Assembly (NCBI RefSeq): GCF_030815145.1
Contig: NZ_JAUSWJ010000001.1
Location: 3,162,001-3,226,000 of the forward strand
DNA length: 64,000 nt
Source of the DNA: Kaistia geumhonensis
GTDB lineage: Bacteria > Pseudomonadota > Alphaproteobacteria > Rhizobiales > Kaistiaceae
Direction of reading: 5' to 3'
Shown here: positions 17,489 through 33,476 of the stretch, piece after piece
How the letters are laid out: the number at the start of each line of letters is the position of its first letter
How positions within the stretch are numbered: position 1 is the first letter of the stretch
Position numbers and translations under genes: made by a program
The notes under the pieces: model-generated
Seen by the model: only the letters and a program-made list of their open reading frames with translations
Databases searched by the model: none
Told to the model about the DNA's origin: nothing

Positions 17489-18889
17489 TCACATGTGGAT
17501 CGGCTTGGTCCAGGCGGCAAGCGCCGCTTCCTTGACGCTTTCCGACATGGTCGGATGCGCGTGCGTCGTGCGGCCGAGATCCTCGGCCGATCCGGCGAAT
17601 TCCATCAGCACCACGATCTCGTGGATCATCTCGCCGGCGCCCGTGCCGACGATATGGCCGCCGAGCACGCGGTCCGTCTTGGCGTCCGAGAGGATCTTGA
17701 CGAAGCCCTCGGTCTGCAGCATCGCGCGGGCGCGGCCATTGGCCGAGAAGGGGAACTTGCCGATCTTGTAGTCGATGCCGGCCGCCTTCAGCTCTTCCTC
17801 GGTGGCGCCCACCGAGGCGATCTCGGGATTGGTGTAGACGACGGCGGGAATGGCCCCGTAGTTCACATGCCCCGCCTGGCCGGCCAGGATCTCGGCCAGC
17901 GCCACGCCCTCGTCCTCGGCCTTGTGGGCGAGCATAGGGCCGGCGATGACGTCGCCGATCGCATAGATGCCCGGCACATTCGTCTGGTAATGCGCGTCGA
18001 CCTTGACGCGGCGGCGCTCGTCGAGCGCGACGCCGGCCTCGGCGAGGCCGAGACCTTCGGTATAGGGACGGCGTCCGATCGCGACGAGCACGACGTCGGC
18101 GTCCAGAACCTCGGCGCTCCCGCCTTCCTTCACCGGCTCGACCGAGACCTTGAGGGACTCGCCGCTGGCGTCGACGGAGGTGACCTTGGTGCCGAGGCGG
18201 AAGGCGATGCCCTGCTTCTGCAACATGCGCTGGAACTGCTTCACCACCTCGCCGTCCATGCCCGGCAGGATGCGGTCGAGGAACTCGACGACCGTGACCT
18301 CGGCGCCGAGGCGCCGCCACACCGAGCCGAGCTCGAGGCCGATCACGCCGGCGCCGACGACGATCAGCTTCTTCGGGACGCTGGAAAGCTCCAGCGCGCC
18401 GGTCGAGGTGACGACGCGCGTCTCGTCGATCGTGACGCCGGGGAGCGGCGCGGAGTCGGAGCCGGTGGCGATGACGATCGCCTTCGTCTCCAGCACCTCG
18501 GTCGCGCCATCGGCCTTGGTCACTTCGACCTTGCCCGTCGCGAGGATCCTGCCCGTGCCGATGATGCCGTCGATCTTGTTCTTCTTGAAGAGATAGGCGA
18601 CGCCGTCGACATTCGACTTCACAGTCGCGTCCTTGTGGGCGAGCATCGCCGGCAGGTCGAGCTCGGCCGGGCCGACCTTCACGCCGAGCGCGCCGAGATG
18701 GCCGACCTCGTCGAACCGCTCCGAGGCATGCAGCAGCGCCTTCGACGGGATGCAGCCGATATTGAGGCAGGTTCCGCCATAGGTGGCGCGCTTCTCGACG
18801 ACCGCGACCTTGAGGCCGAGCTGCGCCGCCTTGACCGCGCAGACATAGCCGCCCGGACCGGAACCGATGACGATGAGGTCGTAGGACAT
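17489..18889 (-). CDS. lpdA: Dihydrolipoyl dehydrogenase (E3)
   Basis: 466 residues, the normal length. FAD-binding [17 protein letters not shown] (9-25), the redox-active disulfide [13 protein letters not shown] (Cys41, Cys46), NAD-binding [13 protein letters not shown], the FAD motif [18 protein letters not shown] and the C-terminal catalytic HAHPTMSES with its partner Glu are all present. It reoxidises dihydrolipoamide on E2 of the 2-oxoglutarate (and probably pyruvate) dehydrogenase complex and makes NADH. It is the last gene of the mdh-sucCDA-odhB-lpdA unit, 73 bases after odhB. Confidence 0.97.
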
Positions 18890-18962
18890 TCGTTTCTGAC
18901 TCTTGGCTCAGCGGCTGGCTGACATCCGGCGTGCCGCCGGGGCGGCGTCCGAAAGGCGGCGC

Positions 18963-20213
18963 TTAAAGATCGAGGATCAGGCGCTGCGGGTCTTCCAGGC
19001 TCTCCTTGACGCGGACGAGGAAGGTCACGGCTTCCTTGCCGTCGACGACGCGGTGATCGTAGGAGAGCGCCAGATACATCATCGGGCGGATCTCGATCTT
19101 GCCGCCGACCACCATCGGCCGCTCCTGGATCTTGTGCATGCCGAGGATGCCGGACTGCGGCGCGTTGAGGATCGGCGTCGACATCAGCGAGCCGTAGATG
19201 CCGCCATTGGTGATCGTGAAGGTGCCACCCTGCATCTCCTCGATCTTCAGCTGCCCGTCACGGGCGCGCTTGCCATAGCCGGCGATGGTCTTCTCGATGC
19301 CGGCGAGCGAGAGCTGGTCGGCATCGCGCACCACCGGAACGACGAGGCCCTTGTCGGTCCCGACCGCGATGCCGATGTGGTAGTAGTTCTTGTAGACGAG
19401 ATCGGAGCCGTCGATCTCGGCGTTCACCGCCGGGATGTCCTTCAGCGCCTGGATCACCGCCTTCACGAAGAAGCCCATGAAGCCGAGCTTGGCGCCGTGC
19501 TTCTTCTCGAACACGTCCTTGTACTGCGAACGCAGCGCCATGACCGCGCCCATGTCGACCTCGTTGAAGGTCGTCAGCATGGCAGCGGTGTTCTGTGCGT
19601 CCTTGAGGCGGCGCGCGATCGTCTGGCGCAGCTTGGTCATGCGCACGCGCTCCTCGCGCGAGGCGTCGTCGGCCGGCGAGGGCGCGCGCGGAGCGGCGGG
19701 CGCCGGCGCGGCGGCTGGCGCCGGGCCGCGCTCGATGGCGGCGATCAGGTCGCCCTTGGTGACGCGGCCGTCCTTGCCGGAACCGGCGACGCCGCCGACA
19801 TCGACGCCGCTCTCGGCGGCGAGCTTGGCGACGGCCGGGCCGTTCGCGTCGGCCGTGACGGGCTTTGCCGGCGCGGCGGCGGGCGCCGCCTTGACGGGCT
19901 CGGCGGCCTTGGCCGGCTCGGCAGCCTTCGCAGGCTCCGCGGGCTTGGCCGCGGGCTTCGCGGCAGCACCGGCACCGCCCTCGGCGATCGAGCCGAGCAG
20001 CGCGCCGACGCCGACGGTATCGCCGTCCTTGGCCTCCTGCGCCTCGAGCACGCCGGCGCTCGGCGCGGGAACCTCGATCGTGACCTTGTCCGTCTCGAGC
20101 TCGACCAGCGGCTCATCGGCAGCGACGGTGTCGCCCACCTTCTTGAACCAGCGCCCGATCGTCGCCTCGGTCACGGATTCGCCGAGGGTGGGTACGCGGA
20201 TTTCGGTTGCCAT
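18963..20213 (-). CDS. odhB: 2-oxoglutarate dehydrogenase E2, dihydrolipoamide succinyltransferase
   Basis: 416 residues. A single lipoyl domain (1-78) carries the lipoylated lysine in [10 protein letters not shown] (Lys43). A long Ala/Pro/Lys-rich swinging linker (about 80-145, [17 protein letters not shown]) leads to the peripheral-subunit binding domain ([20 protein letters not shown]) and the catalytic acyltransferase domain ending with [12 protein letters not shown], whose His and Asp are the active site. It transfers succinyl groups from E1 to CoA. Lies 69 bases after sucA. Confidence 0.97.
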
Positions 20214-20282
20214 GACCAGGTCTCTGCCGTTCGGATCGTCGTTGATGGGGTTGTCTGAAGGGCGGCGCTGCGCCGCCCTCCG

Positions 20283-23273
20283 TCAGGCGAAGGCTTCGTC
20301 GAGGAAGGACGCGAGTTGGGCGAGATGCTTCGACATGAGCCCGGTCGCGGTCGCCGCCGAGGCGGGGCGGCCGACATAGCGGGCGCGCTTCGCAGCGCCG
20401 CCGGCCTGGCCGAGCACCCATTCGAGATTGGGCTCGACGAAGGACCAGGCGCCCATGTTCTTGGGCTCTTCCTGGCACCAGACGACCTCGGCATTCTTGA
20501 AGCGGCCGAACTCGCCGACCAGCGCCTTGAGCGGGAACGGATAGAGCTGCTCGACGCGCATCAGATAGACGTCGTCGATGCCGCGCTTCTCGCGCTCCTC
20601 GTAGAGATCGTAATAGACCTTGCCGGTGCAGACCACGACGCGGCGGATCTTGTCGTCGGGCGCGAGCTTGATGACCTGGTCCTTCAGGAACTCGGCATCG
20701 TCCCACAGGAGACGATGGAAGGACGAGATCGGGCCGAACTGCGCGATATGCGACACCGCCCGCTTGTGGCGGAGCAGCGACTTCGGCGTCATCAGGATCA
20801 GCGGCTTGCGGATGTCGCGCTTCAGCTGGCGGCGCAGGATGTGGAAGTAGTTGGACGGCGTGGTGACGTTCGCCACCTGCATGTTGTCCTCGGCGCACAT
20901 CTGCAGGAAGCGCTCGAGCCGCGCCGAGGAATGCTCGGGACCCTGGCCCTCATAGCCATGCGGCAGCAGGCAGACGAGGCCCGACATGCGCAGCCACTTG
21001 CGCTCGCCCGACGAGACGAACTGGTCGAAGACGACCTGCGCGCCGTTCGCGAAGTCGCCGAACTGCGCTTCCCACAGGGTCAGCGTGTTCGGATCGGACA
21101 GCGAGTAGCCGTATTCGAAGCCGAGCACGGCCTCTTCCGAGAGCATCGAATTGATGACCTCGTAATTGCCCTGGCCTTCCTGGATGTTGTTGAGCGGGAT
21201 GAACCGCTCCTCGGTCTCCTGGTCGTAGAGCACCGAGTGGCGCTGCGAGAAGGTGCCGCGCTCCACGTCCTGTCCGGACAGGCGGATATGGTGGCCCTCG
21301 ATGGCGAGGGTCGCGAACGCCAGCGCCTCGGCCGTCGCCCAGTCGATGCCGACGCCCGTCTCGATCGCCTTCCTGCGATTGTCGATGAAGCGCTGGACCG
21401 TGCGGTGGATGCGGAAATCGGCCGGGATGTCGGTCAGCCGCGCGCCGATGCGCTTCAGCTCGTCGATCTCGAGGCCGGTCTTGCCGCGGCGCGGATCATC
21501 GTCCGCCTGCGCGGCCTTCAGGCCCGACCAGGCGCCGTCCAGCCAGTCGGCCTTGTTGGGCTTGTAGGCCTGGCCGGCCTCGAACTCGGTCTCGAGCTTG
21601 GCGCGCCAGGCGGCCTTCAGCTCCTCGACCTCCTCGGCCGTGACGAGGCCCTCGGCGATCAGCTTGCCGGCATAGAGATCGACGATCGCCGGATGGCTGC
21701 GGATCGTCCGGTACATCAGCGGCTGCGTGAAGCCCGGCTCGTCGCCTTCGTTGTGACCGAAGCGGCGATAGCAGAACATGTCGATGACGACAGGCTTGTG
21801 GAAGCGCTGGCGGAACTCGATCGCCACCTTGGCCGCATAGACCACGGCTTCCGGATCGTCGCCGTTCACATGGAAGATCGGCGCCTCGATCATCTTGGCG
21901 ACGTCGGAGGGATAGGGCGACGAGCGCGAGAAGCGCGGATTGGTCGTGAAGCCGATCTGGTTGTTGACGATGAAGTGCACCGAGCCGCCGGTGCGGTGGC
22001 CCTTGAGGCCCGAAAGGCCGAAGCACTCCGCGACGACGCCCTGGCCGGCGAAGGCCGCGTCGCCGTGGATCAGCAGCGGCAGCACCTCGGAGCGCACATA
22101 GTCCTTGCGCTGGTCCTGCTTGGCGCGCGCCTTGCCGAGCACCACCGGATCGACGATCTCGAGATGCGAGGGATTGGCGGTCAGCGACAGATGCACCTTG
22201 TTGCCGTCGAACTCGCGGTCCGACGAGGCGCCGAGGTGATACTTGACGTCGCCCGAGCCCTCGACGTCGTCGGGGGCGTAGGAGCCGCCCTTGAACTCGT
22301 GGAACAGGGCGCGATGCGGCTTGGCCAGCACCTGCGTCAGAACGTTGAGGCGGCCGCGATGGGCCATGCCGAGCACGATCTCGCGCACGCCGAGATTGCC
22401 GCCGCGCTTGATGATCTGCTCGAGCGCCGGGATCAGCGCCTCGCCGCCGTCGAGCCCGAACCGCTTGGTGCCGGTGAACTTGACATCGAGGAACTTCTCG
22501 AAGCCCTCGGCCTCGACCAGCTTGTTGAGGATCGCCTTCTTGCCTTCGTTGGTGAAGGAGATGGCCTTGTCGGGACCCTCGATGCGCGCCTGGATCCAGG
22601 CCTTCTCGGCCGGATCGGAGATGTGCATGAACTCGACGCCGAGCGTCGAGCAATAGGTGCGCTTCAGGATCGCCAGCATCTCGGGGATGGTGGCGAATTC
22701 GAGCCCGAGCACGTGGTCGATGAAGATCTTGCGGTCGTAGTCGGCCTCGGTGAAGCCGTAGCTCGAGGGGTGCAGTTCCTCGTGGTCGCCGACCGTCGCG
22801 AGATGCAGCGGGTCGAGATCGGCATGCAGGTGGCCGCGCATGCGGTAGGCGCGGATCATCATGATGGCGCGCACGCTGTCGCGCGCCGCCTGCTGCAGCG
22901 CCGCCTCGGAGACGGCGGGGGCGGGCGCGGCGCCGTTGGCCGGCGCGGGCGCCGTCTTCGCCGCGGCCTCGGCCTTCGCCTTCAGCTTGTCGGTGACGAT
23001 CTTCTCGATCTGGCCCCAGTTGCCGTCCATGGCCGAGACGAGCTCGCCATTGGCGTGGATCGGCCAGTCGGGCCGCTGCCAGGTCGCGCCGCGGGCTTCG
23101 GCCGCGACCGTGCGCGGGTCATCCTTGAGCGCGGAAAAGAAATCCCGCCACTCGGCATCCACCGAGGCGGGATCCTTCTCGTACCGCCCGTACAGGTCCT
23201 CGATATAGGCGGCGTTGCCGCCATAGAGGAAAGACGAGGATTGGAACGCCGCGTTGGCTTGTTCGCGTGCCAT
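20283..23273 (-). CDS. sucA: 2-oxoglutarate dehydrogenase E1 component
   Basis: 996 residues. The N-terminal FLYGGNAAYIEDLYGRYEKD helix is the E2/E3-contact motif of SucA. Thiamine-diphosphate binding is shown by HGDAAFAGQGVVAE and the following NNQIGFTT, and the transketolase-type pyrimidine domain by EAQFGDFANGAQVVFDQF. It decarboxylates 2-oxoglutarate and passes the succinyl group to OdhB. No convincing Shine-Dalgarno sequence sits in the 15 bases before the ATG, and a perfect hairpin lies immediately upstream. It is preceded by sucD with 108 bases between, the largest gap in this operon. Confidence 0.97.
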   Translation of the reverse strand: MAREQANAAFQSSSFLYGGNAAYIEDLYGRYEKDPASVDAEWRDFFSALKDDPRTVAAEARGATWQRPDWPIHANGELVSAMDGNWGQIEKIVTDKLKAKAEAAAKTAPAPANGAAPAPAVSEAALQQAARDSVRAIMMIRAYRMRGHLHADLDPLHLATVGDHEELHPSSYGFTEADYDRKIFIDHVLGLEFATIPEMLAILKRTYCSTLGVEFMHISDPAEKAWIQARIEGPDKAISFTNEGKKAILNKLVEAEGFEKFLDVKFTGTKRFGLDGGEALIPALEQIIKRGGNLGVREIVLGMAHRGRLNVLTQVLAKPHRALFHEFKGGSYAPDDVEGSGDVKYHLGASSDREFDGNKVHLSLTANPSHLEIVDPVVLGKARAKQDQRKDYVRSEVLPLLIHGDAAFAGQGVVAECFGLSGLKGHRTGGSVHFIVNNQIGFTTNPRFSRSSPYPSDVAKMIEAPIFHVNGDDPEAVVYAAKVAIEFRQRFHKPVVIDMFCYRRFGHNEGDEPGFTQPLMYRTIRSHPAIVDLYAGKLIAEGLVTAEEVEELKAAWRAKLETEFEAGQAYKPNKADWLDGAWSGLKAAQADDDPRRGKTGLEIDELKRIGARLTDIPADFRIHRTVQRFIDNRRKAIETGVGIDWATAEALAFATLAIEGHHIRLSGQDVERGTFSQRHSVLYDQETEERFIPLNNIQEGQGNYEVINSMLSEEAVLGFEYGYSLSDPNTLTLWEAQFGDFANGAQVVFDQFVSSGERKWLRMSGLVCLLPHGYEGQGPEHSSARLERFLQMCAEDNMQVANVTTPSNYFHILRRQLKRDIRKPLILMTPKSLLRHKRAVSHIAQFGPISSFHRLLWDDAEFLKDQVIKLAPDDKIRRVVVCTGKVYYDLYEEREKRGIDDVYLMRVEQLYPFPLKALVGEFGRFKNAEVVWCQEEPKNMGAWSFVEPNLEWVLGQAGGAAKRARYVGRPASAATATGLMSKHLAQLASFLDEAFA

Positions 23274-23282
23274 TGTTCAAGC

Positions 23283-23332
23283 GAGGAGCCGCCGCTCCTC
23301 TCTCCCTGATCGCGCGGCCGCCGGTGGCCGCG
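23283..23332 (-). other. Two tandem hairpins in the sucD-sucA intergenic region
   Basis: Perfect 7-bp stems GAGGAGC/GCTCCTC (23283-23300, loop of 4) and CGCGGCC/GGCCGCG (23313-23332, loop of 6). Neither is followed by a T-run on the minus strand. The first ends 10 bases before the sucA start codon and could modulate its translation or protect processed mRNA ends. Confidence 0.55.
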
Positions 23333-23381
23333 CCGTTTCGTTGTCCGACATAAGCTGCCCCGCTGATGTCGGTCCTTACCA

Positions 23382-24266
23382 CTAACCCTTCAAGACCTCG
23401 ACCAAGGTCTTTCCAAGGCGGGCCGGAGAAGGCGAGACACGAATGCCCGCCGATTCCATGGCCGCGATCTTGTCCTCGGCGCCGCCCTTGCCGCCCGAGA
23501 TGATGGCGCCGGCATGGCCCATGCGGCGGCCGGGAGGCGCCGTGCGGCCCGCGATGAAGCCGACCATCGGCTTCTTGCGGCCGCGCTTGGCCTCGTCCTT
23601 GATGAACTGCGCCGCGTCTTCCTCGGCCGAGCCGCCGATCTCGCCGATCATCACGATCGACTCCGTCGCATCATCGGCCAGGAACATTTCCAAAATGTCG
23701 ATGAATTCGGTGCCCTTGACCGGATCGCCGCCGATGCCGACGGCCGTCGTCTGGCCGAGGCCCTCGTTCGAGGTCTGGAACACCGCCTCGTAGGTCAGCG
23801 TGCCGGAGCGCGAGACGATGCCGACGCTGCCCTTCCTGAAGATGTTGGCGGGCATGATGCCGATCTTGGATTCGCCGGCCGTGACGACGCCCGGGCAGTT
23901 CGGCCCGATCAGCCGCGACTTCGAGCCGGAGAGCGAGCGCTTCACCTTCACCATGTCGAGGACGGGAATGCCCTCGGTGATGCAGACGATGAGCGGGATC
24001 TCGGCGTCGATCGCCTCGCAGATGGCGTCGGCGGCGCCGGGCGGGGGCACATAGATGACGGAGGCATCGGCGCCGGTCGCCACGCGCGCCTCGGCGACAG
24101 TGTCGAACACCGGCAGGCCGAGATGGGTCTGGCCGCCCTTGCCGGGCGAGGTGCCGCCGACGAGCTGCGTGCCATAGGCGAGCGCCTGCTCGGAATGGAA
24201 GGTGCCGTTCTTGCCGGTGAAGCCCTGGGTGATGAGCTTCGTGTTCTTGTCGATCAGGATGGACAT
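23382..24266 (-). CDS. sucD: Succinate-CoA ligase alpha subunit
   Basis: 294 residues from ATG at 24266. CoA-binding Rossmann part (VQ-like [18 protein letters not shown]), the IGPNCPGVV segment, and the phosphohistidine loop [12 protein letters not shown] with the active-site His are present. With SucC it converts succinyl-CoA to succinate with substrate-level ATP/GTP formation. Its ATG overlaps the sucC stop codon (TGATG), showing translational coupling that matches the 1:1 subunit ratio. Confidence 0.97.
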
Positions 24267-25465
24267 CAGGCAGCTTCCTTCACGGCCTTGACGATCTTCT
24301 GGGCCGCATCGTCGAGATCGTCCGCGGGAATGACGTTGAGACCGCTCTCGCGGATGATCTGCTTGCCGAGTTCGACATTGGTGCCCTCGAGGCGCACGAC
24401 CAGCGGCACTTCGAGGCCGACCGCCTTCACCGCGGCGAGCACGCCGCGCGCGATGACGTCGCATTTCATGATGCCGCCGAAGATGTTGACGAGGATGCCC
24501 TTCACCTTCGGGTCGGAGGTGATGATCTTGAAGGCCGCCGTCACCTTCTCCTCGCTGGCGCCGCCGCCGACATCGAGGAAGTTGGCCGGGCTCTCGCCAT
24601 AGAGCTGGATGATGTCGAGCGTCGCCATCGCGAGGCCGGCGCCGTTGACCATGCAGCCGATCGTGCCGTCGAGCGCGATATAGGCGAGATCGAACTTCGA
24701 GGCCTCGATCTCCTTCTGGTCCTCCTCGGTCTCGTCGCGCAACGCGACGACGTCCGGATGGCGGTAGAGCGAGTTCGAATCGAACGACACCTTGGCGTCG
24801 AGCACCTTGAGGTGGCCGTCCTTGGTGACGATGAGCGGGTTGACCTCGAGCATCGCCATGTCCTTGGCGACGAAGGCCGCGTAGAGCTTCGAGACGACGT
24901 CGAAGGCTTCCTTGGCGAGCGGGCCGGAAAGGCCGAGCGCCTTGGCGACCGTCAGGCCGTGATGCGGCATGATGCCGGTCGCGGGGTCGACGGAGAAGGT
25001 CTTGATCTTCTCGGGGGTCGAATGGGCGACTTCCTCGATGTCCATGCCGCCTTCCGTCGAGACGACGAAGGCGATGCGCGAGGTCTCGCGGTCGACCAGG
25101 AGCGAGAGGTAGAACTCCTTCTCGATGTCCGAGCCGTCCTCGACATAGAGGCGGTTCACCTGCTTGCCGGCCGGGCCGGTCTGCACGGTGACGAGCGTCG
25201 CGCCGAGCATCTCGGTGGCGAACTGCTTCACCTCGTCGATCGAGCGGGCGAGGCGGACGCCGCCCTTCTCGCCGGCGCTCGCTTCCTTGAACTTGCCCTT
25301 GCCGCGACCGCCGGCATGGATCTGCGACTTCACCACCCAGAGGGGGCCGCCGAGCGTGCGCGCCGCGGCCTCCGCCTCGGCGGCCGAGAAGATGGCGACG
25401 CCGTTCGACACCGGCGCACCGAATTCCTTCAGCACTGCCTTGGCCTGGTATTCATGGATATTCAT
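24266..25465 (-). CDS. sucC: Succinate-CoA ligase (ADP-forming) beta subunit
   Basis: 399 residues from the ATG at 25465 ([16 protein letters not shown], the canonical opening). The ATP-grasp domain (about 9-240) has [16 protein letters not shown] and [11 protein letters not shown]; the C-terminal half binds CoA/SucD with [16 protein letters not shown]. Follows mdh by 28 bases and overlaps sucD by one base. A longer open frame to 25669 is simply read-through of the mdh end. Confidence 0.97.
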
Positions 25466-25493
25466 GGGATGCGCTCCGCTGGCTCTGCCGGGA

Positions 25494-26496
<1,003 letters not shown>

Positions 26497-26529: not shown

Positions 26530-26558
26530 GCCATAGCGCGATTAGCTGAACGGCGCAA
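26530..26558 (-). promoter_or_regulatory. Candidate mdh promoter
   Basis: On the minus strand TTGCGC (26558-26553), a 17-base spacer and TATGGC (26535-26530) give a sigma70-like arrangement, predicting transcription start near 26523 and placing the palindrome at 26483-26496 inside the 5' leader. Assigned by eye only. Confidence 0.35.
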
Positions 26559-26617
26559 GTCGAACAAATCCCGCGAGGCAAGGAAATCCGCCATCTCGCG
26601 GTCAGCTTACGTTTGCG

Positions 26618-27784
26618 TCAGGTCTCGGCGATGAAGCCCTTGTGGGCGCCCTGCTGATAGTCGCGCGAGCGCATTTCGGTGAGGCGCGAGGCGGTCCGCG
26701 CGAACTCGAAAGCCTCGGTTCCGGTCTCGGCGCGATAGAGATCGTCCGGCTCCGCGGCGGCCGAGACGATGATGCGGACATGGCCGTCATAGAGCGCGTC
26801 GATCAATGTGATGAAGCGCTTGGCCTCGTTGCGCCGCGTCTCGTCCATCACCGGGATGTGATCGATGACCACCGTGTGGAAGGCATGCGCGACGGCGAGA
26901 TAGTCGCTCGGCCCGAGCGGGCGGCCGCAGAGATCGGCGAAGTCGAAGCGCGCCACACCCTTCGCGGCGGCCGGCACCGCGACGTCGCGGCCGAGCACCG
27001 ACAGCGTCGTCGGGCCGGGATCGCCACCGGCGGTGAGCTTTGCGAAGGCGGCGTCGAGCGCGGCATCCGCCTCCGGCCCGAGCGGCGTCAGGTAGAGCGG
27101 CAGCGCGTCGAGCTTCTCGCGGCGATAGTCGGTGCGCGCGCCCAGCTCCACCACCTCGCAGCGCTGCTTGAGCAGCGCCACGAAGGGCATGAAGTGATCG
27201 CGGTTGAGGCCGCCGCGATAGAGATCGTCGGGGGCGACGTTCGAGGTCGCGACCATGACGACATCGGCGGCGAAGAGGCGGGTGAACAGCCGCCCGAGGA
27301 TCATCGCATCGGCGATGTCGGTGACCGTGAATTCGTCGAAGCAGATGAGCTCGGTCTCGGCGGCGATGGCGTCGGCGACCGGCGCGATCGGGTCGTCGCC
27401 CTTGATGGTGCCGGCCTTGATGGCCTCGCGGGCGCGGAACACCCGCGCATGCACGTCGGCCATGAAGTCGTTGAAATGGGCGCGGCGCTTCTTCTCCGGC
27501 ACGGCCGCCGCGAAGAAGAGGTCCATCAGCATGGTCTTGCCGCGGCCGACGGCGCCATGGACATAGAGGCCGCGCACGGCCTCGCGTTCCTTCTGCCGCT
27601 TGCCGAACAGCCAGCCGAGCGCGCTCGATTTCGAGGCGAGCCTTCGGCCGGCGAGGTCGCTGTTCAGCGCGTCGAGCCGGGCGACCAGCGCGCGCTGCGC
27701 CGGATCCCCCTCGATGGCGCCGTCCGCGACCAGACGTTCATAGGCGTCGGCGACCGCGCCGCGAACCGGCAGCCCCTCGCGCAC
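26618..27784 (-). CDS. zapE: Cell division protein ZapE (AFG1-like ATPase)
   Basis: 388 residues from GTG at 27784, which has GGAGG nine bases upstream. Walker A GAVGRGKTML (77-86, Lys83), Walker B ELICFDEFTVTDIADAM, and the sensor region VATSNVAPDDLY are those of the AFG1/ZapE family. ZapE is an ATPase acting on FtsZ at constriction under low oxygen or heat; mitochondrial AFG1 helps with respiratory-complex turnover. Sitting between lipoprotein and mdh genes, on the same strand as the TCA genes, is the normal Rhizobiales context. Confidence 0.95.
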   Translation of the reverse strand: MREGLPVRGAVADAYERLVADGAIEGDPAQRALVARLDALNSDLAGRRLASKSSALGWLFGKRQKEREAVRGLYVHGAVGRGKTMLMDLFFAAAVPEKKRRAHFNDFMADVHARVFRAREAIKAGTIKGDDPIAPVADAIAAETELICFDEFTVTDIADAMILGRLFTRLFAADVVMVATSNVAPDDLYRGGLNRDHFMPFVALLKQRCEVVELGARTDYRREKLDALPLYLTPLGPEADAALDAAFAKLTAGGDPGPTTLSVLGRDVAVPAAAKGVARFDFADLCGRPLGPSDYLAVAHAFHTVVIDHIPVMDETRRNEAKRFITLIDALYDGHVRIIVSAAAEPDDLYRAETGTEAFEFARTASRLTEMRSRDYQQGAHKGFIAET

Positions 27785-29489: not shown

Positions 29490-30269
29490 TCAGACGCGCC
29501 GCTCGACCATCATCTTCTTGATCTCGGCGATCGCCTTGGCCGGGTTGAGGCCCTTGGGGCAGGTCTGCGCGCAGTTCATGATCGTGTGGCAGCGATAGAG
29601 GCGGAACGGATCCTCGAGATTGTCGAGCCGTTCGCCCGTCGCTTCGTCGCGGCTGTCGATCAGCCAGCGATAGGCCTGCAGCAGCACGGCCGGGCCGAGA
29701 TAGCGGTCGCCGTTCCACCAGTAGCTCGGGCAGGAGGTCGAGCAGCAGGCGCAGAGGATGCACTCGTAGAGACCGTCGAGCTTCTCGCGGTCCTCGTGGC
29801 TCTGCAGCCACTCCTTCTCCGGCTCCGGCGTCGCCGTCTTGAGCCAGGGCTCGATCGAGCGATGCTGGGCGTAGAAATTGGTCAGGTCCGGAACGAGGTC
29901 CTTCACCACCGCCATATGCGGCAGCGGATAGATCTTCACCGGGCCCTTCACGTCCTCGATGCCCTTGGTGCAGGCGAGGGTGTTGGAGCCGTCGATGTTC
30001 ATCGCGCAGGAGCCGCAGATGCCTTCGCGGCAGGAGCGTCGGAAGGTCAGCGTCGGATCGATCTCGTTCTTGATCTTGATGAGGGCATCGAGAACCATCG
30101 GCCCGCATTCGTCGAGATCGACGAAATAGCTGTCGACATGCGGATTGGCGCCGTCGTCGGGGTTCCAGCGATAGATGCGGAACTCGCGCACATTGTTGGC
30201 GCCGGCCGGCCGCGGCCAGGCCTTGCCCTCGTTGATCGTCGAGTTCTTGGGAAGCGTGAGCTGGACCAT
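29490..30269 (-). CDS. sdhB: Succinate dehydrogenase iron-sulfur subunit
   Basis: 259 residues. A plant-type [2Fe-2S] site [15 protein letters not shown] plus NTLAC in the N-terminal half, and the [4Fe-4S]/[3Fe-4S] sites [16 protein letters not shown] and [19 protein letters not shown] in the C-terminal half, are complete. It passes electrons from SdhA-bound FAD to ubiquinone. Unusually it is separated from sdhA by the DUF3052 gene. Confidence 0.97.
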
Positions 30270-30294
30270 GATCGTCCCTTGCTGAGTGCTGTTG

Positions 30295-30741
30295 TCAGCG
30301 CCGATCCTTGCGGATCATCAATTTGAGTCCGGACCAGACGGCATCGACAGCCGCCACCTTGACGTCGACGAGGTCGAGCGCGAGGGCGGCATCGCGGATG
30401 ACGTCCTCGGTCACGTCGGTCGGTACCCTGGATGCCTTCTTGGGCCAGGAGACCCAGATCATGCCGTCGCGGCGGATCGCCCCCTGCAAGCCGGCGAGAT
30501 GGTCCTCGATCTCGGCCCGCCGGGCGGTGAACGCATGCACCGCGTCGAAACGGCCCCAGTCGAGCGGCGCGGACCATGTGTCGAGCCGCACGACCTCGGC
30601 GAAATCGGCGCTCGTGGCGAGCGGCTCCAGCGCCTCCGGCAGGCCGATGAAGGCGACCGTCATCCCGTCCCGGAAGCCGAGCTTCTCGGGCAGCGGCCGC
30701 TTCGAATAGCCGGCCTCGGGAGCGGGGGCGGTCACCGTCAT
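30295..30741 (-). CDS. DUF3052 family protein embedded in the sdh operon
   Basis: 148 residues. The opening [20 protein letters not shown], the central [18 protein letters not shown], and [20 protein letters not shown] with [14 protein letters not shown] are the hallmarks of DUF3052. The fold looks methyltransferase-like (an alpha/beta topology with WVSWPKK in place of a motif) but lacks a glycine-rich SAM site. It starts 4 bases after the sdhA stop and ends 25 bases before sdhB, so it is translated as part of sdhCDA-DUF3052-sdhB. Its function is unknown; the position suggests a link to succinate dehydrogenase. Confidence 0.85.
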
Positions 30742-30745
30742 CGCC

Positions 30746-32569
30746 TCAGTAGACTCGCGCCTTGGGCTCGATATAGGCGATGTCGTTCGACATCGTGTAG
30801 GTGTGCACCGGCCGGTCCTCGAGGCGCACGGACTTCGTCGCCGTGTCGACGAAGGCGAGCGAGTGCTTCATCCAGTTCGCGTCGTCGCGGTTCGGATAGT
30901 CCTCGCGGGCATGGGCGCCGCGCGACTCGGTCCGGTTCTGCGCCGAATCCATGGTCGCCACCGCCTGAACGATCAGGTTCTCGAACTCCAGCGTCTCGAT
31001 GAGGTCGGAGTTCCAGATCAGCGAGCGGTCGGTGACGCGGATGTCCGACGCGTCGCGCCAGACATGGTGGATCAGCTCGTGGCCTTCATCCAGCACCTCG
31101 CCGGTGCGGAAGACGGCGCAGTTCGACTGCATCACCTTCTGCATGCGCAGGCGCAGCGCCGCCGTCGGCGTGGCGCCGTTCGCATGGCGCAGATGGTCGA
31201 GGCGCGCGATGGCGTCCTCGCCGTCGCCCTTGGCCAGTTCGCGCTGCTTCTCGCCGGGCCGGACGGTCTCGATGGCGCGCAGCGCCGCCGCGCGGCCGAA
31301 GACAACGAGATCGGTGAGCGAATTGGAGCCGAGCCGGTTGGCGCCGTGCACCGAGACGCAGGCCGCCTCGCCGACGGCCATCAGGCCGGGCACGACCTTG
31401 TCGGGATCGCCGCCGACCTTGGTCAGCACCTCGCCGTGATAGTTCGTCGGGATGCCGCCCATATTGTAATGGACGGTCGGCAGCACCGGGATCGGCTCCT
31501 TGGTGACGTCGACGCCGGCGAAGATCTTGGCGCTCTCGGAAATGCCCGGCAGCCGCTCGTGCAGGAGCGCGGGGTCGAGATGGTCGAGATGCAGGTGGAT
31601 GTGGTCCTTGCCCTTGCCCACGCCGCGGCCCTCGCGGATCTCCATGGTCATGGCGCGGGAGACGACGTCGCGCGAGGCAAGGTCCTTGGCGGAGGGCGCA
31701 TAGCGCTCCATGAAGCGCTCGCCCTCGGAATTGGTGAGATAGCCGCCCTCGCCGCGCGCGCCCTCGGTGATGAGGCAGCCGGCGCCATAGATGCCGGTCG
31801 GATGGAACTGCACGAATTCCATGTCCTGCAGCGGCAGGCCGGCGCGGAGCACCATGCCGCCGCCGTCGCCGGTGCAGGTATGGGCGGAAGTCGCCGAGAA
31901 ATAGGCGCGGCCATAGCCGCCGGTCGCCAGGATCGTCTTGGCGGCACGGAAGCGGTGCAGCGAGCCGTCTTCCATCGACAGCGCGACGACGCCGCGGCAG
32001 ACGCCGTCTTCCATGATCAGGTCGATGGCGAAATATTCGATGAAGAACTCGCAGGCGTGACGCAGCGACTGGCCATAGAGCGTGTGCAGGATGGCGTGGC
32101 CGGTGCGGTCGGCGGCGGCGCAGGTGCGCTGGGCGATGCCCTTGCCGAAATTCGTCGTCATGCCGCCGAACGGGCGCTGGTAGATCTTGCCGGCCTCGGT
32201 GCGCGAGAAGGGCACGCCGAAATGCTCGAGCTCGTAGACGGCGGCCGGAGCGTTGCGCACGAGATATTCGATCGCGTCCTGGTCGCCCAGCCAGTCCGAC
32301 CCCTTGACGGTGTCGTACATGTGGAAGCGCCAGTCGTCCTCGCCCATGTTGCCGAGCGCAGCCGAGATGCCGCCCTGCGCCGCCACGGTGTGGCTGCGGG
32401 TCGGGAACACCTTGGAGATGCAGGCGGTCTTCAGTCCGCCCTCGCTGGCGCCGAGCGCCGCGCGAAGGCCTGCGCCGCCGGCTCCGACGACGACGACGTC
32501 GAAGGTGTGATCGATGAAGGTGTATGCGCGGCCGTTCACGGCCGGCGCGCTGCCATTGGCCTCGGCCAT
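30746..32569 (-). CDS. sdhA: Succinate dehydrogenase flavoprotein subunit
   Basis: 607 residues from ATG at 32569. FAD dinucleotide fold [16 protein letters not shown] (about 25-40), the covalent-flavin segment [19 protein letters not shown] with its His, and the dicarboxylate site with HPTGIYGAG and the later [15 protein letters not shown] are intact. Oxidises succinate to fumarate in the cytoplasmic part of complex II. Starts two bases after the sdhD stop codon. Confidence 0.97.
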
Positions 32570-32571
32570 CG

Positions 32572-32979
32572 TCAGCCTCCGAAGGTGATCTTGATGAGGG
32601 CGAGCGCGGCGGCGACGCCGACCGCGATCGAGAAGAAGGCGTTGGCCACCAGCAGCGTGACCTTGGCGGCGCCGTGGAAGTAGTCCTCGATGATCACCTG
32701 CATGCCGATCTTCATGTGCCATGCGCCGGCGCCGACCATCAGCACCATCAGGAGCGCCACGAAGGGATTAGCGAGCACCGCGACCACCTCGCCATGCGGG
32801 CGGCCGGCCAGCGCGATGACGAGGATAACGAAGACGAGGGTGAGGACGGCGAGGGCGGCGCCGGTGAGGCGCTGATACCAGAAATGACCCGTGCCCTCGC
32901 GGGCGGAGCCGAGGCCGCGGACCCGGGACAGCGGGGTGCGCATCGAAGGCGTGGTCGTGGACGAACTGGGCGTCGACAT
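32572..32979 (-). CDS. sdhD: Succinate dehydrogenase membrane anchor subunit
   Basis: 135 residues from ATG at 32979 (GAGG upstream; a second ATG at 32943 has no such site). A Ser/Thr-rich leader is followed by [12 protein letters not shown], the quinone-site region, and three helices. [14 protein letters not shown] provides the heme-b His (about His88) and the motif of SdhD. Completes the sdhC-sdhD membrane domain. Translation is nearly coupled to sdhC (11 bases) and sdhA (2 bases). Confidence 0.93.
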
Positions 32980-32990
32980 GCGGGATGACC

Positions 32991-33389
32991 TCAGGAGAGC
33001 GCCAGGGCGACGATCCAGACCAGGATCGTCAGCGCGGCCGAGCCGATGATGTTCGCCCAGGCGAGATTGTCGCGGGCGCTCTTGGAGAAGCCGGCGCCGA
33101 CATCCCAGACGAAATGGCGCAGGCCGCCCAGGAGGTGATGCAGCAGCACCCAGGTGTAGCCGAACAGCACGATGCGCCCGATCCACGAGCCGAACACGGC
33201 ATTGGCGAATTCGAACGGGCCGGGGCCGGCGGCGGCGGCGATCAGCCACCAGGCCAGAAGCAGCGTGCCGCCATAGAGCGCGACGCCGGTTGCCCGATGC
33301 AGGATCGACATCGTCATCGTGATCGGCCAGCGATAGATCTGCAGGTGCGGAGAGAGCGGCCGGCTCGCCTTCGCCTCGGCGTTCGACAT
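32991..33389 (-). CDS. sdhC: Succinate dehydrogenase cytochrome b556 subunit
   Basis: 132 residues. RPLSPHLQIYRWPITMTMSILHRATG is the SdhC family signature (split here into two runs of under 20: RPLSPHLQIYRW and PITMTMSILHRATG). Three membrane helices follow, with the heme-binding HLLGGLRH (His85, His92). An AGGAGG ribosome-binding site stands 8 bases before ATG. First gene of the operon; preceded by a sigma70-like promoter and a perfect palindrome. Confidence 0.95.
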   Translation of the reverse strand: MSNAEAKASRPLSPHLQIYRWPITMTMSILHRATGVALYGGTLLLAWWLIAAAAGPGPFEFANAVFGSWIGRIVLFGYTWVLLHHLLGGLRHFVWDVGAGFSKSARDNLAWANIIGSAALTILVWIVALALS

Positions 33390-33406: not shown

Positions 33407-33426
33407 AGCTTACGTTTACGTAAGCT
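33407..33426. promoter_or_regulatory. Perfect palindromic operator in the sdhC leader
   Basis: AGCTTACGT-TT-ACGTAAGCT: 9-bp arms with no mismatch around a 2-base centre, 18-37 bases before the sdhC ATG and about 15-34 bases downstream of the predicted transcription start. The core TTACGT-N2-ACGTAA recurs before mdh. It resembles, from memory, the MerR-type LiuR operator of branched-chain amino-acid catabolism genes; the actual regulator is not in this window. Confidence 0.75.
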
Positions 33427-33447: not shown

Positions 33448-33476
33448 GTTCTAGCGCCATTGTGCGGCCCGGTCAA
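33448..33476 (-). promoter_or_regulatory. Candidate sdhC promoter
   Basis: On the minus strand TTGACC (33476-33471), a 17-base spacer and TAGAAC (33453-33448). This is the best sigma70-like pair upstream of sdhC and puts the palindrome within the transcribed leader, where a bound protein would block elongation or initiation. Confidence 0.5.

Follow-up and report, generated by a model that had tools for sequence, protein, structure and literature searches.

The nearest characterised relative known to us of the regulator considered here is LiuR, which has been reported as a MerR-family repressor of branched-chain amino-acid use that in Shewanella also reaches the glyoxylate shunt (PMC3223726), and which in Rhodospirillum rubrum goes up on butyrate (PMC7238569). 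Like the proteins that we group as clade A below, LiuR of Shewanella, Pseudomonas and Rhodospirillum rubrum is a small MerR-family regulator of acyl-CoA catabolism; clade A differs in its Kaistia sites, which lie at sdh and mdh-suc (at ≤ 1 mismatch, at sdhC and mdh only). A second precedent comes from Shewanella PsrA and PdhR, where TCA genes such as sdh and gltA are joined to fatty-acid or pyruvate regulons (PMC5343134). The logic resembles that at our locus, in that TCA genes are taken into a catabolic regulon. PsrA and PdhR belong to the TetR and GntR families and use other operators; they are not MerR proteins. By fold, the closest described protein is HiNmlR (E-value 2.2e-6, TMq 0.63, 27 % identity), which likewise possesses no separate sensor domain, and we know of no link between HiNmlR and TCA genes. 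To our knowledge, the specific control of the lower TCA cycle in Hyphomicrobiales is poorly charted, including in the nitrogen-fixing rhizobia, whose bacteroids run on dicarboxylates. Searches of the open-licence literature returned, among the matches listed, no MerR regulator of TCA genes in alphaproteobacteria, and none of six operator strings was found there. A defined operator together with a candidate protein, as described below, makes lower-TCA control in this order directly testable.

The window, by which we mean the whole stretch of 64,000 nucleotides that was analysed, corresponds to C1:3162001-3226000 of a one-contig genome of 4.59 Mb, and 13 further genomes of the same genus were compared with it. 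It contains two units of lower TCA genes (Table 1). For the first of these, sdhA matched TIGR01816 and sdhB matched PRK05950, with sdhD recognized by its Sdh_cyt match. The gene names originally proposed thus stood for sdhC, sdhD, sdhA, sdhB, mdh, sucC, sucD, sucA, odhB and lpdA; the label DUF3052 for the 148-aa ORF between sdhA and sdhB (30295-30741) is unconfirmed, as no Pfam match was obtained for it at 1e-5. Among the 80 named loci kept, Kaistia adipata has the Mdh closest to that of the window (89 % identity).

Table 1. Candidate operators, putative promoter elements and gene units in the window, with overlapping dyads from related loci (locus numbering)
Feature	Position	Strand	Description
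sdhC-leader candidate operator	33407..33426	-	Perfect 9-2-9 palindrome AGCTTACGTTTACGTAAGCT; core TTACGTNNACGTAA at 33410-33423
mdh promoter-proximal candidate operator (mdh-sucC-sucD-sucA-odhB-lpdA)	26483..26496	-	TTACCTAAACGTAA, one mismatch to TTACGTNNACGTAA
mdh promoter-distal candidate operator	26607..26620	-	TTACGTTTGCGTCA, two mismatches; coding strand TGACGCAAACGTAA; overlaps zapE TGA stop
Putative sdhC -35 hexamer	33471..33476	-	TTGACC, 87 bases before ATG; 6/6 columns invariant, 14 genomes
Putative sdhC -10 hexamer	33448..33453	-	TAGAAC, 64 bases before ATG, 17-bp spacer; 6/6 columns invariant
Tentative mdh promoter region	26531..26559	-	CTTGCG at -100 to CTATGG at -77, between both mdh operators
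sdhC	32991..33389	-	TIGR02970, 137.1 bits, cut-off 52.3; first gene of unit
sdhC-sdhD-sdhA-(148-aa ORF)-sdhB unit	29490-33389	-	
mdh	25494..26459	-	TIGR01763, 411.8 bits, cut-off 351.85; first gene of unit
mdh-sucC-sucD-sucA-odhB-lpdA unit	17489-26459	-	Other five genes also over family cut-offs
zapE	26618..27784	-	NF040713, 420.6 bits; upstream neighbour of mdh, stop inside distal operator
Overlapping dyad pair, L126	1501-1520		
Overlapping dyad pair, L128	1501-1520		
Overlapping dyad pair, L138	1995-2014		
Overlapping dyad pair, L340	2901-2920		

The sequence-only reading from which this work started had placed a perfect palindrome before sdhC and a related dyad before mdh, and both are exact in letters and coordinates. 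The sdhC dyad consists of the arms AGCTTACGT-TT-ACGTAAGCT, lying 18-37 bases ahead of the ATG at 33389, and the proximal mdh dyad reads TTACCT-AA-ACGTAA, 24-37 bases ahead of the ATG at 26459. A further dyad that the reading lacked sits 124 bp upstream of the proximal mdh copy, and the stop codon of zapE (26618-26620, with the frame read in the genome itself) forms part of it. The same TGA is present in all 14 leaders aligned. We treat these dyads as candidate operators, for which binding, the sign of control, the start sites and the ligand are what we infer. On the evidence set out below, we consider it quite probable that both dyads are operators of one small MerR regulator, most likely one that represses both operons until a metabolic signal releases it. 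That a single regulator, encoded elsewhere, serves both TCA units had been proposed from the letters; the proposal is now backed by the genome-wide rarity of the operator, its conservation in Kaistia, its position beside a MerR gene in relatives, and the co-occurrence of site and protein.

Within the genus, the arms of the sdhC dyad (CTTACGT/ACGTAAG; CTTACGTNNACGTAAG) are invariant in 14 of 14 columns across 14 Kaistia genomes, compared with 16 of the 95 other gap-free columns, and the two-base spacer between them varies (AA, GA, TT or AT). When 13 Kaistia genomes are aligned at mdh, nine of the 12 arm columns of the proximal dyad do not vary, compared with 44 of the 131 other gap-free columns; the dyad is found at ≤ 2 mismatches in 11 of these 13, with more than two mismatches in G002 and G009. 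The distal dyad (≤ 2 mismatches) occurs at the corresponding place in all 13 Kaistia genomes in which mdh was located, as well as in G015, and the distance between distal and proximal dyads is 122-125 bp in the 12 genomes (11 Kaistia plus G015) where both score.

The candidate reader of these sites is a 151-aa MerR protein encoded outside the window, about 1.07 Mb away (C1:2116261-2116713), which matches the MerR winged helix-turn-helix domain PF13411 with 63.6 bits (cut-off 21.6). It is the one match of its group in this genome at 1e-25, among six MerR_1 hits in all. Its structural model (mean pLDDT 82) comprises a winged helix and a 49-residue C-terminal coiled-coil helix, with no separate sensor domain, and the best fold matches in the PDB were HiNmlR and MtaN bound to DNA. 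The protein contains neither Cys nor His in its 151 aa, and its best NCBIfam score was 57.2 bits, against cut-offs of at least 143 for the metal-sensing CueR, ZntR, CadR and MerR families. No operator at ≤ 2 mismatches was found in the 6.4-kb region of the regulator gene itself, nor in those of G010 and G015. Autoregulation in Kaistia was considered and rejected, with no ≤ 2-mismatch site in L335 or L348 and, in a closer scan that covered 11 of 15 loci, best matches of 3-4 mismatches. The Kaistia gene has no adjoining acyl-CoA dehydrogenase. A large divergent ORF beside it weakly resembles those of G033, G040, G054 and G055 (25-30 % identity, E-values of 1e-7 to 1e-17, which may reflect low complexity) and showed no match to those of G041 and G047, such that synteny with relatives is weakly supported.

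In order to follow site and protein together, the MerR group, mdh and sdhC were located in 61 relatives, and sites were scored at ≤ 2 mismatches within 450 bases upstream. The group was matched at 1e-25 in 39 of the 61. In Kaistia's family, the protein goes with an sdhC site in 15 of 15 genomes (14 Kaistia plus G015) and with an mdh site in 14 of 14 with mdh located; both units thus carry the operator in all 14 family genomes with the protein and both genes located, and neither unit does in the 13 of 13 without it. This pattern may reflect a single gain or loss. Across the rest of the order (33 genomes, with neither gene located in G052 and mdh unscored for G029 and G050), only G037 and G047 have the two sites together. 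At least one of the two genes has a site in five of 14 clade-A genomes, in one of 10 with only a weaker relative (G049) and in none of the eight scored without a match; nine of the 14 clade-A genomes therefore have no site at either gene, mdh being unscored in one of them. The sdhC site was found only in Kaistia, G015, G037 and G047 (17 of 60 genomes scored) and is thus not conserved across the order. Conservation at orthologous upstream regions, which the sequence-only reading had made a test of its proposal, holds for mdh (25 of 80 named loci, against at most two of 80 for permuted patterns) and fails order-wide for sdhC. In a larger set of 297 order genomes, exact TKACGTNNACGTAA was found in 113 of the 145 that have clade A, in 22 of the 59 with weaker relatives only and in 12 of the 93 without a relative, the reversed control being found in 40, 13 and 25 of the same genomes, respectively (Fisher test for clade A versus none, 3.7e-24, uncorrected for kinship). 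Clade A was defined in both the 297- and 61-genome tests as E ≤ 1e-45, a line drawn after the tree had been seen, and as no more than 13 candidates per genome were scored in the larger search, some proteins may have been missed.

Elsewhere in the order the operator is found beside the regulator's own gene and near genes of fatty-acid breakdown. In G054, G055, G045, G040 and Mesorhizobium caraganae it adjoins a MerR gene that has an acyl-CoA dehydrogenase as its neighbour, and neighbours of clade-A genes include a PF12806-type acyl-CoA dehydrogenase and a thiolase (the latter named by eye). G037 has 14 sites at ≤ 1 mismatch, with none for the control. In the 12 G037 regions covered, seven sites precede TCA genes (citrate synthase, aconitase, sdhC and, with two sites, mdh), an acyl-CoA dehydrogenase, a long-chain acyl-CoA synthetase and what we take to be an ETF-quinone-oxidoreductase-like gene (with a weak FAD-oxidoreductase match in NCBIfam); of the remainder, one site precedes an SCP2-domain gene and four are without an assigned gene. 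The acyl-CoA dehydrogenase of G037 scored 109.3 against the NCBIfam isovaleryl-CoA dehydrogenase model, far under its cut-off of 545. When exact TKACGTNNACGTAA was sought in eight named genomes, seven had hits, at 18 places: six before mdh, three before acyl-CoA dehydrogenases, two before ETF-QO-like genes, one before a MerR gene, one before an acyl-CoA synthetase and five unassigned (mostly named by eye); Bradyrhizobium viridifuturi had no exact TKACGTNNACGTAA. Outside Kaistia, then, beta-oxidation has as large a part in the predicted regulon as the TCA cycle. At gltA in G037, and next to the regulator gene in G045, G040 and G034, a pair of dyads shares 8 bases (a 6-bp shift), as if two dimers lay side by side. 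In Hoeflea marina (L300) and Phyllobacterium bourgognense (L310), an exact site was also noted ahead of similar genes for a HerA/DUF853-like ATPase (named by eye), which have no evident TCA or fat link. In Stappia, Roseibium, Pseudovibrio and Pannonibacter (L046-L053), a half dyad TTACGTAAAGGG is merged with the presumed ribosome-binding region, 21-24 bases before mdh.

These patterns bear on whether the dyads, if real operators, are read in Kaistia by a different regulator, with the clade-A protein governing beta-oxidation only elsewhere and the co-occurrence reflecting kinship. Such a view gains from the remoteness of the candidate gene, which has no site of its own in Kaistia, and from those Rhizobiaceae that keep the mdh site without clade A. 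We nevertheless judge it unlikely, given that, among the matches listed, 25 of 51 genomes with both clade A and sites have a site ≤ 800 bp from the regulator gene, that the sites are absent from all 13 family genomes without the protein, and that no second member of the group was found in Kaistia.

With one MerR protein as the favoured reader, the layout of the leaders suggests how it might act. A strict promoter scan listed none at either the sdhC or the mdh leader, so the sdhC promoter rests on the conservation of its hexamers; at mdh the promoter-like stretch is partly conserved (CTTGCG, five of six columns invariant). For sdhC we infer a transcription start near -52, which would put the dyad at about +16 to +35, and this position downstream of invariant promoter-like hexamers suggests repression. 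The sequence-only reading had one regulator repressing or sensing for both units; its repressive sense is drawn here from that geometry. As we envisage it, a dimer of the 151-aa protein would bind TTACGTNNACGTAA, sitting at sdhC about 16-35 bases past the putative transcription start and blocking from inside the leader, and at mdh dimers would occupy both sides of the presumed promoter, 124 bp apart. Both operons would then be repressed, by blocking or looping, until a metabolic signal released the repressor. Since the operator elsewhere precedes acyl-CoA dehydrogenases, the gene of the regulator itself and, in a single genome, both citrate synthase and aconitase, the probable signal is an acyl-CoA or another product related to fatty-acid breakdown, and the TCA cycle would open upon the arrival of fat-derived acetyl-CoA.

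Membership of the MerR family, by sequence and by fold, raises the prospect that the regulator instead activates by distorting a long-spacer promoter. Classical MerR activators bind an operator between -35 and -10 hexamers that are spaced by about 19-20 bp. In the sdhC leader the dyad comes after the invariant TTGACC-17-TAGAAC, such that the spacer is 17 bp and the dyad is not between the hexamers, and LiuR is reported to be a repressor (PMC3223726); activation of this kind is accordingly improbable. Far more doubtful still is a role for the dyads as RNA hairpins controlling the translation of sdhC or mdh. Both leader dyads do stand immediately ahead of the ribosome-binding region, and their arms could pair in a transcript; however, the distal mdh copy precedes the presumed promoter and sits on the zapE stop, and the dyads of Rhizobium, Phyllobacterium, Nitratireductor and others are placed roughly 150-290 bases upstream of mdh. 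Moreover, a two-base spacer would probably be too short for a stable loop without the opening of pairs.

Palindromy alone is ordinary in this DNA: perfect palindromes with 9-bp arms and a spacer of 0-4 number 12 in the window, and ten first-order Markov sequences average 5.1. The core behaves differently: in the 4.59-Mb genome TTACGTNNACGTAA has one exact place (sdhC), one place with one mismatch (mdh) and none other, and its reversed pattern has none at ≤ 1 mismatch. No genome-wide excess over the reversed control was seen at ≤ 2 mismatches (nine places versus 29) or at ≤ 3 (195 versus 388); in the window, eight matches at ≤ 3 mismatches compare with 2.76 expected, and none of 100 shuffles reached eight. 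One of the seven two-mismatch places in the genome is the distal mdh dyad. The sequence-only reading had staked its case on matches falling upstream of genes rather than inside them; the two best both lie upstream, and a crude gene caller places five of the six further two-mismatch matches inside ORFs. The one extragenic place among those six (L004 1501-1514; C1:761247-761260) has a phasin-like gene, named by eye, 159 bp downstream of it; it may fit carbon storage or be chance. A wide Kaistia regulon is not supported, two- and three-mismatch matches being below the reversed control, and because weaker matches show no excess Kaistia seems to have a regulon of two operons and three sites, additional weak sites being conceivable.

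A permuted-arm control points the same way. The mdh site was present in 25 of the 80 named loci (≤ 1 mismatch, within 330 bases), and the next best of 119 other permuted-arm palindromes in two. One permuted arm, CGTTTA, also scored in the 61-genome set (14 at mdh, nine at sdhC); as its dyad overlaps the same sites, it is taken to be a shadow of them. That the dyads are chance palindromes, some five of this kind being expected per window, has next to no probability in view of the cross-genome conservation, the permuted-arm control and the co-occurrence with the MerR gene.

The sequence-only reading had noted an apparent likeness of the core to LiuR-type (MerR family) operators. In trees of 35 and 50 rows, clade A split from a LiuR-like clade and from a third clade with support of 100/98 and 99/98; the smaller tree leaves out four distant outgroup rows and three other divergent rows. 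A tree that included distant MerR outgroups was set aside as distorted by long branches, clade A not being one side of a branch there (2 changes). Clade-A candidates from Hoeflea, Mesorhizobium and Aurantimonas, which had been left ungrouped, fell on the clade-A side of the 50-row tree, and members of both clade A and the LiuR-like clade are present in G040, G046 and G050. For two of the four LiuR-like seed rows, the best PDB match of the neighbouring gene product was isovaleryl-CoA dehydrogenase (4o5m, 4kto); of the other two, one stands beside a cut-off acyl-CoA dehydrogenase and G049 has none in the region seen. The candidate regulator falls outside this clade linked to liu/ivd genes (100/98). 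By this separation it is LiuR-related and not LiuR, which narrows the proposed regulator to a group akin to LiuR.

LiuR-like genes in Phyllobacterium, Mesorhizobium, Aurantimonas and a MAG have sites of the ATTGACTTTTACGTAA type, which differs in a single base from TGACGTTTACGTAA, the commonest clade-A site; looser forms were seen at those of Hoeflea and Rhizobium, and no site at those of Bartonella and Stappia. Furthermore, the mdh site is kept without a clade-A match, with a LiuR-like paralogue present, in Rhizobium sp. G21, Phyllobacterium bourgognense, a Bartonella, MAG bin.49 and G049. Operator and regulator are thus not tied one to one; in those genomes either the LiuR-like paralogue took over the operator or a further regulator exists. 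We would give roughly even chances to a broader account, in which an undescribed group of Hyphomicrobiales MerR repressors, paralogous to LiuR, couples fatty-acid oxidation to the TCA cycle, the Kaistia regulon has shrunk to two TCA operons, and Rhizobiaceae lost the regulator and a LiuR paralogue took its operators. These observations suggest an operator kept over long evolution while two paralogous regulators exchanged it, and, if the hand-over is true, one that outlived its regulator in Rhizobiaceae. The third MerR clade (clade C: L320, L322-L326, L328, L330 and L331) lies mostly beside acyl-CoA synthetase or thiolase/fadB-like genes, mostly named by eye.
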